In this document: in pieces, positions 1 through 6,061 of the stretch | Numbering within the stretch: position 1 is the stretch's first letter | How the letters are laid out: each line of letters begins with the position of its first letter | Assembly: GCA_018667995.1 (NCBI GenBank) | Contig: JABIQT010000003.1 | Span: forward strand, 1 to 6,061 | DNA: 6,061 nt | DNA from: Candidatus Latescibacterota bacterium | Lineage (GTDB): Bacteria; JAAXHH01; JABIQT01 | Direction: 5' to 3' | Made by a program: the position numbers and the translations under genes | The notes under the pieces: model-generated | The model's input: the letters and a program-made list of their open reading frames with translations, nothing else | The model's database searches: none | What the model was told of the DNA's origin: nothing

Positions 1-711
1 CGCATGAGAGATATCCATGGTGCCCCCATCATCATCCGGGACAGCGTCCACTGCTTCGTGGATATTGGGCTTGATGATCACGCTCCGGAATTCACCAATA
101 CGAACACGCGAATCGATCAGGATTGTCTTTTCTGAGTATTCCACTGCGAGGCGGCAGATTTCCGATCTGACACGATCCGTGATGACTCCGAAATTGCGTT
201 CTTGAACCTGATCGCTGACAATTACTCCATCCATTTCGGGTACGATGTTTCGCAAGTGGCGGATTATTTTTTCTTCAATATCAACCGGGACGGGCGTCCG
301 ATTCTTAATATCTAGACGATTTAGTTCCCGCTCGGAGCTTTGACCGATACGGACCGTGGGCTTGGTGTATGTGGGTGTAAAGCGCTCTGATGTCTCAACG
401 AGTGCGGTGGTATCTACACCTGATTCGATTAACCCCTTTCTGAGTTCATAACCGTTGCCGTCAGCGCCGATCATACTGAGTGCGTGTATGTTGCCAACGC
501 CCAGCGCTCTGAGATTATTCGTCACAGTCCCGGCTGCTCCAGGGCTGCAGCGCCGTTCGACCACCTGGTAGGCATCGAGACCTGTCTCAAGACTCGACTC
601 CGTTAGTTGAGGATCCGTGATGAGATATTCGTCCAGAAAGAAATCCCCGACCACTAGCATAGAGAGGTCTGGGAATCTCTCCAGCAGCAGCTGGAGCCGT
701 TGATCGGTCAT
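1..711 (-). CDS. PfkB-family carbohydrate kinase, HldE/RfaE kinase-domain-like (partial, C-terminus off the left edge)
   Basis: Reading leftward from ATG at 711, the frame stays open for 237 codons to the window edge. The translation matches the N-terminal two thirds of a ribokinase/PfkB-fold sugar kinase, closest in pattern to the heptose-7-phosphate kinase domain of HldE (RfaE). Residues 20-27 (VVGDFFLD) are the first beta strand with substrate-side Asp residues. Residues 57-71 (PGAAGTVTNNLRALG) correspond to the PGGAANVAxNxxxLG loop. IGADGNG follows at 82-88, a TKPTVRI strand at 117-123, and DSR...KPN at 200-216. The ATP-site GAGD motif would lie beyond the edge, so catalytic competence cannot be judged. 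The family phosphorylates a sugar or sugar phosphate with ATP in the cytoplasm; HldE itself serves ADP-heptose synthesis for LPS. An oddity is Thr62 where HldE-type kinases usually have Asn, so the substrate may differ. It starts 11 bp after the oxygenase stop codon, implying co-transcription; the upstream GTGAG is only a weak ribosome site. Family assignment is firm; the substrate is unknown. Confidence 0.85.
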   Translation of the reverse strand, partial: MTDQRLQLLLERFPDLSMLVVGDFFLDEYLITDPQLTESSLETGLDAYQVVERRCSPGAAGTVTNNLRALGVGNIHALSMIGADGNGYELRKGLIESGVDTTALVETSERFTPTYTKPTVRIGQSSERELNRLDIKNRTPVPVDIEEKIIRHLRNIVPEMDGVIVSDQVQERNFGVITDRVRSEICRLAVEYSEKTILIDSRVRIGEFRSVIIKPNIHEAVDAVPDDDGGTMDISHA

Positions 712-722
712 TGGATCTCACT

Positions 723-1601
723 TCAAAAAGGTGATCCCGTTTGGAATTCCTGGGGGCGTAGGTCGTAGCTCTTATGGTGGGTGAGATAATCTATTGGCTC
801 GTCCACATACGAGGCAGATGTTTCCAAATGGCTGTGTTCGAAATACGATTCGCAACCTGTAGCGATCCGGATCTCCCCCGATCGCATCCATGAGCACACG
901 TGAATCATGGCGATCATAGGACGTGGCCGGTTGCTGAGGTTGGGCATACCTCGATGCCAAAGTCGCATATCCCGTATCAGGATACCGCCAATCGGCACCT
1001 CCGGCTGAAGGGGCGGATGAGTATCTGTTCGCGAAAGAACGTCTTCCTCCGGAACACGGATAGAGTCTCCCCAAGCCACCGTGGTATCTGAATGGCTGCC
1101 TGGCCAGAGTTCGATACTGCCGTTGTGCGCAGTCATGTTGATCACGGGTACGTTTACGACGAGCATATTTGCCGGGTGTGGGTGTGCCATGTGAGGCCAG
1201 AGATGGCCCTGATCCACATGCACCGGTTGGCGTACGGAGCCCGGCAGATTAGTATTGCCGCTGTAAAAAGTGTTTCGTACTCCGTTGCCCAGAATGGCCT
1301 CCGTGATGGCAACAACGATCTCATTGCACACCACGTCTTTAAACAGGTATGGTTCGAAAGGCGGCGGATCCTGTTGAATGTGGCCTCGAACAAATTGGTA
1401 GGGAGGCTCTTTCAGGGACTCGATTGATGGCACATCCTGAAGCATTCGTGGCTGAATCTCGTGAATGTGCTCTGGATCTATGACACCGAGTAAAATCACA
1501 TACCCGTCTTTCCGAATAGCCCGTACAGCTTCTGTAAGACTTTCAGAATGAATGGTACCTGTGGCCCGTTCTGATCTCGAAATATCGATCATGTTAACCA
1601 C
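723..1601 (-). CDS. Phytanoyl-CoA dioxygenase (PhyH) family Fe(II)/2-oxoglutarate oxygenase
   Basis: This 292-residue protein has the usual length of bacterial PhyH-family enzymes, which hydroxylate small molecules using Fe(II), O2 and 2-oxoglutarate in the cytoplasm. The iron facial triad is visible: His128 and Asp130 in QPVHVDQGH, and distal His216 in RLWHRGMPN. Arg227 lies 11 residues after the distal His and is the expected 2-oxoglutarate carboxylate ligand; human phytanoyl-CoA hydroxylase has the same His-to-Arg spacing. GSIELWPGSH at 161-170 is the family's conserved strand-turn. No signal peptide or membrane segment is seen. The frame opens at GTG (1601), with an in-frame ATG at 1592 as an alternative. 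The AGGGGAG ribosome site at 1610-1604 sits very near the GTG and about 11 nt from the ATG, so the true start may be either. It heads an operon with the kinase downstream, behind a strong promoter. The substrate cannot be inferred: the family includes acyl-CoA, ectoine and natural-product hydroxylases. Confidence 0.9.
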   Translation of the reverse strand: MVNMIDISRSERATGTIHSESLTEAVRAIRKDGYVILLGVIDPEHIHEIQPRMLQDVPSIESLKEPPYQFVRGHIQQDPPPFEPYLFKDVVCNEIVVAITEAILGNGVRNTFYSGNTNLPGSVRQPVHVDQGHLWPHMAHPHPANMLVVNVPVINMTAHNGSIELWPGSHSDTTVAWGDSIRVPEEDVLSRTDTHPPLQPEVPIGGILIRDMRLWHRGMPNLSNRPRPMIAMIHVCSWMRSGEIRIATGCESYFEHSHLETSASYVDEPIDYLTHHKSYDLRPQEFQTGSPF

Positions 1602-1836: not shown

Positions 1837-4038
1837 ATGTCACTTACAGACCCAATCCCTGAGGCAATACAGCGGAAACTGAATACCTGTCTCGAGGCCG
1901 ATGAGGAGCTTCGGCTCGCCATCGAGTCGGACGTCGACAATGACGGACGCTTCAATCCGCGTTGGCTGATTACGACCGACAGGCGGGTAATGACCGTGGA
2001 TCTTAATGGCGGGAAGTCTGATATCGCCATTTCGTTGAAAGACATTCAAAAGGTCCATATTCATCCTCTGGTTGGCGGTGGGATGCTGGAGGTCAGCACA
2101 TTTTCCGATACCGTCCCCCTGATCTCCTATACTCAGAGCAAAACGGAACGGTTCGTAGAGGCCTCTCGTGGTATCGAGCAGCTAGTGGAAGAAAAGCCGT
2201 TCCAGGTAAGAACCAAGTTTGCCAAGACCAAATGCGATAGCTGCGGCCGCCGTCTTCCCTCCAAAGATGCTCTGTGCCCGGCCTGTGTCAGTAAGTGGGA
2301 TATGTTCAAGCGTATCGCCACCTACATGACGAATCATACCGGCAAAGTACTGCTTATGGCTGGTATGTTCCTCATAACCACCCTTGCCGATCTGGTACCG
2401 CCCAAGATTACACAGCTACTGATTGATGAAGCATTCCCGCAGAAGGATACGGAACTGCTTTTCTGGTATGTAGTGGCCTTGGGTTCCATGATGCTGATAC
2501 GCTGGATCGCCGAAATGGTGTATGGATGGTTGAGTGCCTGGCTTGGTGCCAGGGTAGTCGCAGACATTAGGAGCGAAGTCTATCGTCATCTGGAACTTCT
2601 TTCGCTGGGCTATCATGACAAAATGAAAACCGGCGGCCTCCTGTCACGCGTCACATCCGACACGCGCAATCTCCGCCATTTCCTTGTGGATGGCCTGCCA
2701 TACCTCGTCTTGCGCTGGCTTATGTGCATCGGTGTAGTGACGATGCTGTTCTACACCAATTGGCTTCTGACCATATACATCCTGCTGCCGGTTCCGATTA
2801 TTATCTATTGGGGCGCACAATTATTCAAGAGGCTGCGGGTTTCATACTACCGGCTTTGGCGCCGTTGGGAGGATTTCTACAACCATATACAGGAGACACT
2901 CTCCGCGATACGTGTCGTCAAGGCTTTTGCACAGGAGCCTCGTGAGGTAAAACGCTTCCAGCGTAATACCCAGGCACTGTTTGAGATCGGCTATTGGACG
3001 GAGCGGAAGTGGATCTTTTATTTTTCAACCATGGGATTGTTTACGTTCCTTGGTTTCGCAATCGTATGGCTGGTAGGCGGTCGACAGGTCCTTGGCGAGG
3101 AACTTACCGTTGGGGAGCTGATGCTCTTCTATTTCTATCTGCACATGTTCTATGGCCCATTGAGATGGCTGGGACGCGTCAATAGCTGGATGACACGAGC
3201 CATGAGCGCCGCAGAGCGGATTTTTGAGATCATGGATACGGAGCCTGAATCATACAACGATCCCAAATCCATTGCCATGCCCAATGTTCGTGGTGATATC
3301 TCGTTTCAAGATGTGACATTCGGATACGAGGCGGCATTGCCCGTATTGAAAGAGGTAAGTCTTGATATACACGCTGGTGAGATGGTGGGATTGGTGGGGA
3401 AATCTGGAGCCGGAAAGACCACTACTATCAACTTGATATGCCGCTTCTACGATGTGAACTATGGAGCGGTTCTCCTGGACGGTGTCGACATTAGAGATAT
3501 CCGGCTGGAGGACGTTCGAAGTCATATCGGCGTGGTGATGCAGGATCCTATTCTCTTCAATGGCACCATAGGGGAGAACATATCCTACGGTAATCCGGAC
3601 GCTTCCTTCGAGCTTGTCATCGCGGCGGCACGCGCGGCCAACGCCCACAATTTCATCCTTGGAAAACCAGATGGGTACGACACTGTTTTGGGTGAAAAGG
3701 GCACAGGCTTGTCCGGTGGTGAGAAGCAAAGGGTATCGATCGCCCGGGCCGTTTTACATGATCCCAGTATTCTCATTCTTGATGAAGCGACTTCGTCGGT
3801 GGATGCTCAGACAGAAAAGCTCCTGCAGGAGGCCATAGGTCGTCTTACCAAGGGACGAACGACGATTGCCATTGCCCACAGGCTCTCAACGCTTCGCGAT
3901 GCCAGTCGATTGGTGGTGCTTGATCAGGGAAAACTTGTTGAGCAGGGAACGCATGAAGAATTGATGAAGAAACACGGACACTTCCATCATCTGGTGCAGT
4001 TGCAGCAGATGACGTCTGAGATCATGGTCGTTAACTAG
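1837..4038 (+). CDS. ABC exporter half-transporter with N-terminal PH-like domain and zinc ribbon (first of a tandem pair)
   Basis: This 733-residue type IV (MsbA/BmrA-like) ATP-driven exporter subunit is longer than the usual 570-600 residues because of an extra N-terminus. Residues 10-118 are a beta-rich domain with a WLITTDRRV strand, resembling bacterial PH-like (YokE-type) domains. Cys133, Cys136, Cys147 and Cys150 form a CxxC-10-CxxC zinc ribbon just before the elbow helix. Six membrane helices fall near 170-190, 206-229, 287-307, 308-330, 393-413 and 423-445. The nucleotide-binding domain (about 487-722) has A-loop Tyr497, Walker A 521-528 (GKSGAGKT), Q-loop Gln569, signature LSGGE at 625-629, Walker B with Asp649 and catalytic Glu650, D-loop Asp656 and switch His681. 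All are intact. The extension should be cytosolic because it precedes the first helix and has no signal peptide. The start is supported by AAGGA 6 nt upstream. A paralogue follows after 26 bp, pointing to a heterodimer. Cargo is unknown; lipids, peptides or drugs are all possible. Confidence 0.93.
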   Translation: MSLTDPIPEAIQRKLNTCLEADEELRLAIESDVDNDGRFNPRWLITTDRRVMTVDLNGGKSDIAISLKDIQKVHIHPLVGGGMLEVSTFSDTVPLISYTQSKTERFVEASRGIEQLVEEKPFQVRTKFAKTKCDSCGRRLPSKDALCPACVSKWDMFKRIATYMTNHTGKVLLMAGMFLITTLADLVPPKITQLLIDEAFPQKDTELLFWYVVALGSMMLIRWIAEMVYGWLSAWLGARVVADIRSEVYRHLELLSLGYHDKMKTGGLLSRVTSDTRNLRHFLVDGLPYLVLRWLMCIGVVTMLFYTNWLLTIYILLPVPIIIYWGAQLFKRLRVSYYRLWRRWEDFYNHIQETLSAIRVVKAFAQEPREVKRFQRNTQALFEIGYWTERKWIFYFSTMGLFTFLGFAIVWLVGGRQVLGEELTVGELMLFYFYLHMFYGPLRWLGRVNSWMTRAMSAAERIFEIMDTEPESYNDPKSIAMPNVRGDISFQDVTFGYEAALPVLKEVSLDIHAGEMVGLVGKSGAGKTTTINLICRFYDVNYGAVLLDGVDIRDIRLEDVRSHIGVVMQDPILFNGTIGENISYGNPDASFELVIAAARAANAHNFILGKPDGYDTVLGEKGTGLSGGEKQRVSIARAVLHDPSILILDEATSSVDAQTEKLLQEAIGRLTKGRTTIAIAHRLSTLRDASRLVVLDQGKLVEQGTHEELMKKHGHFHHLVQLQQMTSEIMVVN

Positions 4039-4064: not shown

Positions 4065-6061
4065 ATGGCAGTCTACTCAGAAAAAATGCCAGAAAAAATG
4101 GAAGAGAAATGCAGGCAGGCACTGCATGAAGGTGAAACTGTGCATATGAGCGCGGTTTCCGATCTTTCAGAAGACATGCAATATGTGGACCGCTGGCTAG
4201 TTGTCACGGATCGCCGTGTGCTTCGGTTTGACCCCGAAAGTGTGAACGGGACCTTCTCCATTGAACTGTCGGAAATCCGAAGCTCTGCCGTTGAAGACAT
4301 GGTGGGTACGGGCAGACTGAACGTGGATGTGGGCGGGGAGATGGTGGAATTCATCAATTATACTCCGACACAACGAGCCAAGTTTGTCGAGATCGCCAAG
4401 GGTATTGATCAGCTGGCAAAAGAAAAGCCTCTTGATATTTCTACCGACATAGATCGTACGAGATGCGATGCGTGCGGAATGCTGTTGCCTGAAGCGAACG
4501 GACTGTGCCCCAGTTGCACAAATAAGATGGCCATAATGAAGCGAATTCTGGCCTATCTGGCTCCGTTCAAAGGCACGGCCATTCTCATGGTGTCCATGTC
4601 CATGATCATGACAATCGCCGAGCTGGGACCTCCATGGATCATGAAGGTGATCCTCGACGATGTAATCGGTGCCAACAGTGCTGTTGCCGAAGGCGAGCGC
4701 CTGCCACTGCTCTACATGCTTGTGGCTGCGTTTCTCGGTATCCGCCTTGTGTCTTACGTGATGGAGGTCCTTCGTGGACGCATTTCCTTCTGGCTGGCAG
4801 GTCATATCACCATTGCCGTACGAGATCAGCTGTATAAGAATCTCACCCGTTTGGGATTGAAGTTCTACAACAAACGCCAGGTAGGTACCCTCATTTCACG
4901 TGTAACCAATGACGCGGAAAGCATGGAGGGATTTCTGCTGGACGGGATGCCCTACATGCTGACCAATGCCCTCATGATTGTAGGTATTCTCGGATTCCTA
5001 TTCTACATGAGTTGGCAATTGACGTTGTGCGTGCTCATCCCAGTTCCCCTCTTGGTCCTGGGTGGTACCTATTTCTGGGATCGACTACGCCGCGCGTTCC
5101 GGATGAAGTATTATCGCTGGGGCAAGTTAGTGGGATTGACCAGTGAAATGCTCTCTTCCGTGAGAGTCATGAAGGCATTCGCGCAGGAAACCCGAGAAAT
5201 GCGTCGATTTGAAGGACGTAACGAAGATGTCTTCCGTGGTGACTTCGATAGCGAGCGTGAGGCCTACATGTTTTTCGGCACCATGAGCATGTTAACGTCG
5301 TCCGGTCTGATCCTTGTGTGGTATTTCGGCGGAAATAGCATTATCGACGGTTCCTTTACGCTTGGCGCGTTGATGGCATTCATCAGTTATCTATGGATGC
5401 TGTACGAGCCGCTTCAGTGGTTCGGAGAACTCAATACGTGGATGAGCCGGGCTATGAGCGGCGCAGAGAAGATATTTGAGGTAATCGATACAAAGGCTGA
5501 GACGCACGACACGGAGAACCCCGCCGACATAGGGACCATAGAGGGGCGTGTCTCCTTTGAAGAGGTCAATTTCTCCTACGAGTCTGGCAAACCCGCTTTG
5601 AAGAAGATCTCGCTTGATATTGCTCCGGGTGAGATGATCGGTCTGGTAGGACGATCGGGAGCTGGAAAGAGTACGTTGATTAACCTGATCTGCCGGTTCT
5701 ACGACGTGGACGATGGTGTGCTTAAGATTGACGGAGTTGACATAAATCGAATCGCATTGAAGGACCTTCGAAGCCAGGTGGGAATGGTGCTGCAAGAATC
5801 CCTGTTCTTCAGTGGTTCTGTGGCGGAAAATATCGCCTACGGTCATCCCGATGCGACTTTAGAAGAGATAATGTCGGCGGCGCGGGCGGCCAATGCGCAC
5901 AATTTCATTTGCGGCAAGCCAGACGGTTATGATACCCAGGTGGGCGAGAACGGCCGTGAACTTTCAGGAGGAGAACGGCAGAGAATCTCTATTGCCCGTG
6001 CAATTATCGACAATCCTCGCATACTGATTCTCGATGAGGCCACATCATCGGTAGACACGCA
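4065..6061 (+). CDS. ABC exporter half-transporter with N-terminal PH-like domain and zinc ribbon (second of the pair, partial at the right edge)
   Basis: The frame runs from ATG at 4065 for 665 codons plus two bases to the window edge; by comparison with its neighbour about 65-75 residues are missing. The layout matches the first exporter: a PH-like domain (about 12-119, with WLVVTDRRV), a zinc ribbon of Cys134, Cys137, Cys148 and Cys151 with identical CxxC-10-CxxC spacing, a six-helix exporter membrane domain (about 165-455), and a nucleotide-binding domain from about 495. Visible ATPase motifs are A-loop Tyr505, Walker A 529-536 (GRSGAGKS), Q-loop Gln577, signature LSGGE at 633-637, and Walker B with Asp657 and Glu658; the D-loop begins at 661. 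The switch His lies off the edge. Similarity to the first protein runs end to end, including AARAANAHNFI in both ATPase domains, so they arose by duplication and probably pair as a heterodimer. An ATG at 4086 or 4098 could also start the frame, but 4065 has the better-placed ribosome site. Cargo is unknown. Confidence 0.92.
   Translation, partial: MAVYSEKMPEKMEEKCRQALHEGETVHMSAVSDLSEDMQYVDRWLVVTDRRVLRFDPESVNGTFSIELSEIRSSAVEDMVGTGRLNVDVGGEMVEFINYTPTQRAKFVEIAKGIDQLAKEKPLDISTDIDRTRCDACGMLLPEANGLCPSCTNKMAIMKRILAYLAPFKGTAILMVSMSMIMTIAELGPPWIMKVILDDVIGANSAVAEGERLPLLYMLVAAFLGIRLVSYVMEVLRGRISFWLAGHITIAVRDQLYKNLTRLGLKFYNKRQVGTLISRVTNDAESMEGFLLDGMPYMLTNALMIVGILGFLFYMSWQLTLCVLIPVPLLVLGGTYFWDRLRRAFRMKYYRWGKLVGLTSEMLSSVRVMKAFAQETREMRRFEGRNEDVFRGDFDSEREAYMFFGTMSMLTSSGLILVWYFGGNSIIDGSFTLGALMAFISYLWMLYEPLQWFGELNTWMSRAMSGAEKIFEVIDTKAETHDTENPADIGTIEGRVSFEEVNFSYESGKPALKKISLDIAPGEMIGLVGRSGAGKSTLINLICRFYDVDDGVLKIDGVDINRIALKDLRSQVGMVLQESLFFSGSVAENIAYGHPDATLEEIMSAARAANAHNFICGKPDGYDTQVGENGRELSGGERQRISIARAIIDNPRILILDEATSSVDT

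Follow-up and report, generated by a model that had tools for sequence, protein, structure and literature searches.

In ABC exporters, the segment that lies N-terminal to the elbow helix is cytosolic, and cytosolic domains of other kinds are known in this position from the C39-peptidase exporters (PCATs) and from IrtA. Many half-exporters of poorly studied phyla, by comparison, resemble generic MsbA-type pumps. The exporters described here begin with a PH-like domain followed by a four-cysteine ribbon. Bacterial PH domains are mostly electronegative, do not possess the lipid site of the eukaryotic domains and are predicted to have protein partners (Xu et al. 2010, PMC2817789). Those that have been solved form rings via beta-sheet extension and have been proposed to drive the oligomerisation of membrane proteins (PMC2817789). 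Among NCBIfam models, NF052233 ("cyanophycin metabolism-associated ABC transporter", CphA_assoc_ABC) fits both exporters best, and NF052234, a CphA_assoc DUF1854 protein, fits their partner protein best; the main text of a survey of cyanophycin genes names neither ABC nor DUF genes (PMC10206079).

Anatomy of the two tandem half-exporters

The window, a stretch of 6,061 nucleotides that makes up the whole of contig C943, belongs to a fragmented Candidatus Latescibacterota genome (6.06 Mb in 1165 contigs, 85% complete), and its features are collected in Table 1. The end of the second exporter gene was recovered from contig C438, the first 141 bases of which are identical to the last 141 bases of the window; joined across the two contigs, ORF2 encodes 752 aa in an unbroken frame with its H-loop intact, and C438 (L081:446-1021) holds the end of ORF2 together with a DUF1854 gene. 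ORF1 is an intact half-exporter, with Pfam domains ABC_membrane at residues 175-442 and ABC_tran at residues 504-653, and the Walker A, signature, Walker B and H-loop motifs are canonical both in ORF1 and in the completed ORF2. The two proteins are 42% identical over 660 residues. The PH-like domain and the putative zinc ribbon are present on both, and because ORF2 bears the same extension as ORF1, the window probably encodes both halves of one ABC exporter, a heterodimer. The membrane domain of ORF1 begins near residue 155-175, and the preliminary description was right to set the first 150 or so residues apart from a standard exporter: residues 1-152 precede the membrane domain, and the end that it gave to the extension, position 2292 (residue 152), falls two residues past the last cysteine. 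Because it is N-terminal to the elbow helix, the extension is cytosolic.

Table 1. Features of the window and the evidence for each
Feature	Position	Strand	Evidence
PfkB/HldE-like sugar kinase	1-711	-	TIGR02198 95.8 bits, cut-off 345
PhyH-type dioxygenase	723-1601	-	between kinase and exporters
ABC half-exporter 1 (ORF1), 733 aa: N-terminal extension + TMD + NBD	1837-4038	+	ORF; PF00664, PF00005; ATPase motifs
PH-like domain, exporter 1, residues 1-118	1837-2190	+	AlphaFold2; 3dcx_B Z 11.3; bPH_3 22.9 bits
Putative four-Cys zinc ribbon, exporter 1: C133, C136, C147, C150	2233-2286	+	sequence, conservation, weak double-zinc-ribbon Pfam matches
ABC half-exporter 2 (ORF2), runs past contig end	4065-6061	+	ORF; overlap with contig C438
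PH-like domain, exporter 2	4065-4418	+	aligns to exporter 1; bPH_3 19.8 bits
Putative four-Cys zinc ribbon, exporter 2: C134, C137, C148, C151	4464-4517	+	sequence, alignment

The PH-like fold that had been proposed from sequence pattern is borne out by structure prediction. In an AlphaFold2 model made from a 16-sequence alignment (mean pLDDT 84.5), residues 1-118 of ORF1 form a PH-like seven-stranded barrel with a C-terminal helix, the predicted layout being a helix at residues 9-18, seven strands within residues 25-99 and a helix at residues 100-117. The first Foldseek match was 3dcx, a bacterial PH protein, and the best fold match was its chain 3dcx_B (rmsd 2.6 over 104 residues, model residues 4-118); the 50 listed entries that were realigned are overwhelmingly PH-superfamily folds, including 3hsa_B (Z 11.0), and eukaryotic PH and GRAM domains are also among the fold matches. 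Searching with the extension alone (residues 1-172) gave a narrower outcome, in that bPH_3 (PF14470) matched residues 19-111 with an E-value of 1.2e-4 but fell 0.1 bit under its gathering cut-off of 23 bits, and scored 19.5 bits when the whole ORF1 protein was the query, so that sequence alone just misses the PH assignment. The same profile matches 6 of 24 family members at E 0.01. By sequence, the extension matched nothing in the PDB, and a 24-sequence profile of the extension returned weak PDB matches only (E 0.085 or worse). In 31 of the 38 members the PH module carries a net negative charge (median -4).

The cysteines of ORF1 form a CxxC-x10-CxxC pattern just ahead of the elbow helix, as the preliminary description had noticed. 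Among 38 non-redundant exporters, all four cysteines are present in 31 and all are absent from 7, with no partial set, an all-or-none pattern that suits a metal site and that chance would not produce; judged from its sequence, the ribbon would bind metal. It is missing from two separate clades that keep the PH domain and DUF1854. One is a clade of ribbonless paralogues, L021 (G000:C632), L083 and L085; the other consists of L122, L125, L126 and L074 (on a Gemmatirosa plasmid), where DUF1854 is still adjacent. Upstream of L122 lie ORFs that, judged by eye, resemble efflux and outer-membrane channel genes.

The kinase gene of the window is divergent from the exporters. The same PfkB kinase is found upstream in Latescibacterota-type relatives (L028, L053 and L055-L060), with none seen in other phyla, and the kinase/PhyH/exporter gene order recurs in L053.

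A single exporter clade and its DUF1854 partner

The extension marks a single exporter clade, a distinct and widely spread subfamily. The four copies that the window's genome contains were the sole source of a profile (A1), with which the extension was detected in 16 of 16 genomes of the phylum and in 1 of 23 genomes outside it. In phylum genomes a tandem pair is usually accompanied by one or two single-gene paralogues, and named loci come from Latescibacterota, Gemmatimonadetes-labelled MAGs, Chloroflexi, Zixiibacteriota, Armatimonadetes and others. In a tree of the exporter cores that was built without the extension, the 38 extension-bearing cores lie on one side of one branch (SH-aLRT 99), opposite a small outgroup of seven exporters without the extension, six of them in this genome and the seventh in another. 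ORF1 is joined in the tree by the leading genes of the L066 (Zixibacteria) and L121 tandem pairs, which places the duplication before the split of these lineages. One tandem pair with DUF1854 departs from the common architecture (L088:5740-7609 and 7484-9455, in G015): its first half has the ribbon only, and its second has neither PH domain nor ribbon. Two 182-aa ORFs with a weak match to the extension (G227:C26:18587-18946 and G356:C19:180759-181118) are not accompanied by an exporter and come from genomes that lack DUF1854. The extension of the second exporter, the marking of a single clade and the DUF1854 partnership had all been missed by the preliminary description.

DUF1854 (PF08909) scored 132.3 bits on contig C438, against a gathering cut-off of 26.8, and its open frame starts about 40 bases past the ORF2 stop. 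The gene lies directly 3' of the extended exporters in phylum genomes and at most other loci examined, and DUF1854 almost always accompanies the extension-bearing clade. Across 384 genomes, DUF1854 and the extension occurred together in 31 (31 of 31 DUF1854 genomes), a weak match to the extension occurred without DUF1854 in 3 and neither was found in 350, numbers that are somewhat circular in that some of the exporters behind the survey profile (A5) were themselves neighbours of DUF1854. The Fisher p is about 1e-42, with the genomes not being independent of one another, and outside the phylum the association held in 15 of 15. The A1 profile agrees on a smaller set, with G019 the sole outside genome from either search among the first 23. 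In three genomes (G019, G306 and G296) the DUF1854 gene and the exporter lie on different contigs, so the co-occurrence does not reflect gene order alone.

The partnership has local exceptions. Extended exporters without an adjacent DUF1854 gene are found at L062 and L087. In the Chloroflexi MAGs L061 and L062 no DUF1854 gene stands beside the exporter, L061 being near its contig end; a further copy, with DUF1854, is present in these genomes (L069 and L063), perhaps as a separated second half. In its divergence, DUF1854 is more closely correlated with the exporter core (partial r 0.53) than with the PH domain (partial r 0.28). The predicted structure of DUF1854 is confident (pLDDT 88.2) and gave no clear structural match (best Foldseek E 0.017, best Z 4.8), which is not evidence of a new fold. 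No third gene was common to different phyla around the exporter and DUF1854 loci examined, and no open-access paper mentioning DUF1854 was found. Searches of plasmids for DUF1854 found only that of Gemmatirosa, and one of 14 control genomes, that of the archaeon Sulfolobus acidocaldarius, has the domain. At L070:5450-7281, the tail of an exporter is followed by an open frame that joins a ribbon-bearing extension to DUF1854; this apparent fusion was rejected, as the locus is degraded and most of the exporter is missing.

Possible roles of the extension

We tentatively favour the view that the PH-like domain and the ribbon form a docking and regulatory platform on a two-half exporter that works with DUF1854, and put its chances a little short of even. 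In each half, a cytosolic PH-like domain would come first, followed by a zinc ribbon and directly by the elbow helix, and the small soluble DUF1854 protein, encoded just downstream, would work with the exporter. Placed at the pump's cytosolic mouth, the module would dock proteins and regulate the pump; the ribbon would be a rigid link between the PH domain and the elbow helix, and the binding of a partner (DUF1854 and/or cargo) at the module would be coupled to the transport cycle. The net acidity of the PH module, the properties described for bacterial PH domains (PMC2817789) and the partnership with DUF1854 favour a platform of this kind over a lipid sensor, and for the PH domain we infer that protein docking is likelier than lipid sensing. 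The ribbonless clades and the PH-less L088 pair indicate that no part of the extension is indispensable. A related proposal is that these proteins represent a widespread class of adaptor-dependent exporters, in which the PH domain and ribbon on each half are the docking site of a dedicated adaptor, DUF1854; the adaptor would choose the cargo or license the transport cycle, and the class would have nothing to do with cyanophycin except in one side branch. This is possible but, in our judgement, doubtful.

The observation behind the preliminary description is thus confirmed, and its interpretation, in which the extension senses membrane lipid, recruits a partner or gates transport, is supported in part. 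The recruitment of a partner is consistent with the almost constant presence of DUF1854, but the L088 pair keeps DUF1854 without a PH domain, and this pair, together with a divergence that follows the core more than the PH domain, makes us hesitate to name DUF1854 as the PH ligand, although the two may be in contact. The same two observations are compatible with a different role, in which the PH domain mainly holds subunits together, pairing the halves or building higher oligomers, while the ribbon is a spacer and DUF1854 binds elsewhere, and the oligomerising rings of solved bacterial PH domains (PMC2817789) point in this direction as well. We nevertheless consider a subunit-joining role rather unlikely. 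Single-gene members bear the same module, which is therefore not specific to pairing two different halves, and it is well established that ABC exporters already dimerise through the TMD and NBD. Sensing or binding of membrane lipid by the PH-like domain, with gating of transport, seems less likely still, and nothing that we found speaks for the lipid sensing of the preliminary description: a PH-superfamily fold beside the membrane, with eukaryotic PH and GRAM domains among its fold matches, would suit such a role, but a common fold proves no function, and both the charge of most of these modules and the lack of the eukaryotic lipid site in bacterial PH domains (PMC2817789) argue against it.

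That the exporter belongs to a cyanophycin system and moves cyanophycin or its dipeptides, as the best NCBIfam matches would imply, is very improbable, and for the locus in the window this reading is largely refuted. The exporter scores against NF052233 (634.2 bits for ORF1 and 491 for the contig-truncated ORF2 protein) are under its cut-off of 880, the DUF1854 protein scores 102 bits against NF052234 with a cut-off of 150, and the window's genome has no NF052233 match over the cut-off. Cyanophycin synthetase (CphA, TIGR02068) is over its cut-off in none of the 16 phylum genomes, of which the window's genome (85% complete) is one, and in none of the 15 other DUF1854 genomes, and there is no CphA gene in the window. 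Within the survey, 11 genomes have CphA over the cut-off and none of these has DUF1854, although an overlap of only about 1 would be expected by chance (p 0.61). Taken together, the scores under the cut-offs and the absence of CphA from DUF1854 genomes indicate that the cyanophycin label fits at most a side branch, and it should not be passed on to most members.

Comparison with described systems

Our analysis describes a real but moderately surprising variant of the ABC exporter, whose DUF1854 partner is well supported. Its N-terminal module and DUF1854 partner make the subfamily recognisable, and this offers a joint function to test for two unknown families. If the module docks an adaptor, this would constitute a new cytosolic way of controlling an ABC exporter, and the adaptor reading, if true, would be the first instance of control of such an exporter by a PH fold.

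NF052233 and NF052234 share with the window the same pair of exporter and DUF1854 genes, and the NF052233 model spans the whole protein, including the PH part (E 2.7e-6 for the PH domain alone); the window differs in having no cyanophycin synthetase and in having two exporter genes in tandem. Whether the extension is a routine, already characterised part of a known exporter subfamily therefore has a divided answer, in that NF052233 covers it, but no characterisation of the subfamily was found in the open literature. The MsbA-type models TIGR02203 and TIGR02204 are the next best for the ORF1 core (466.5 and 485 bits), although ORF1 is under both cut-offs (TIGR02203 needs 602 bits) and both models start at residue 156, after the extension. 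The bPH_3 profile is covered nearly in full and represents the same fold class, whereas the domain in the window is part of an ABC exporter and has the putative zinc ribbon after it. The closest solved structures, 3dcx and 3hsa, are PF08000/DUF1696 proteins and resemble the extension down to the N-terminal helix, but these are free-standing soluble ring-formers with 14-15% identity and no transporter. The N-terminal domains of PCATs and IrtA are unrelated and enzymatic, and no such activity is evident in the extension of the window, yet these exporters provide a working analogy, that of a cytosolic module placed ahead of the TMD to handle cargo or a partner.
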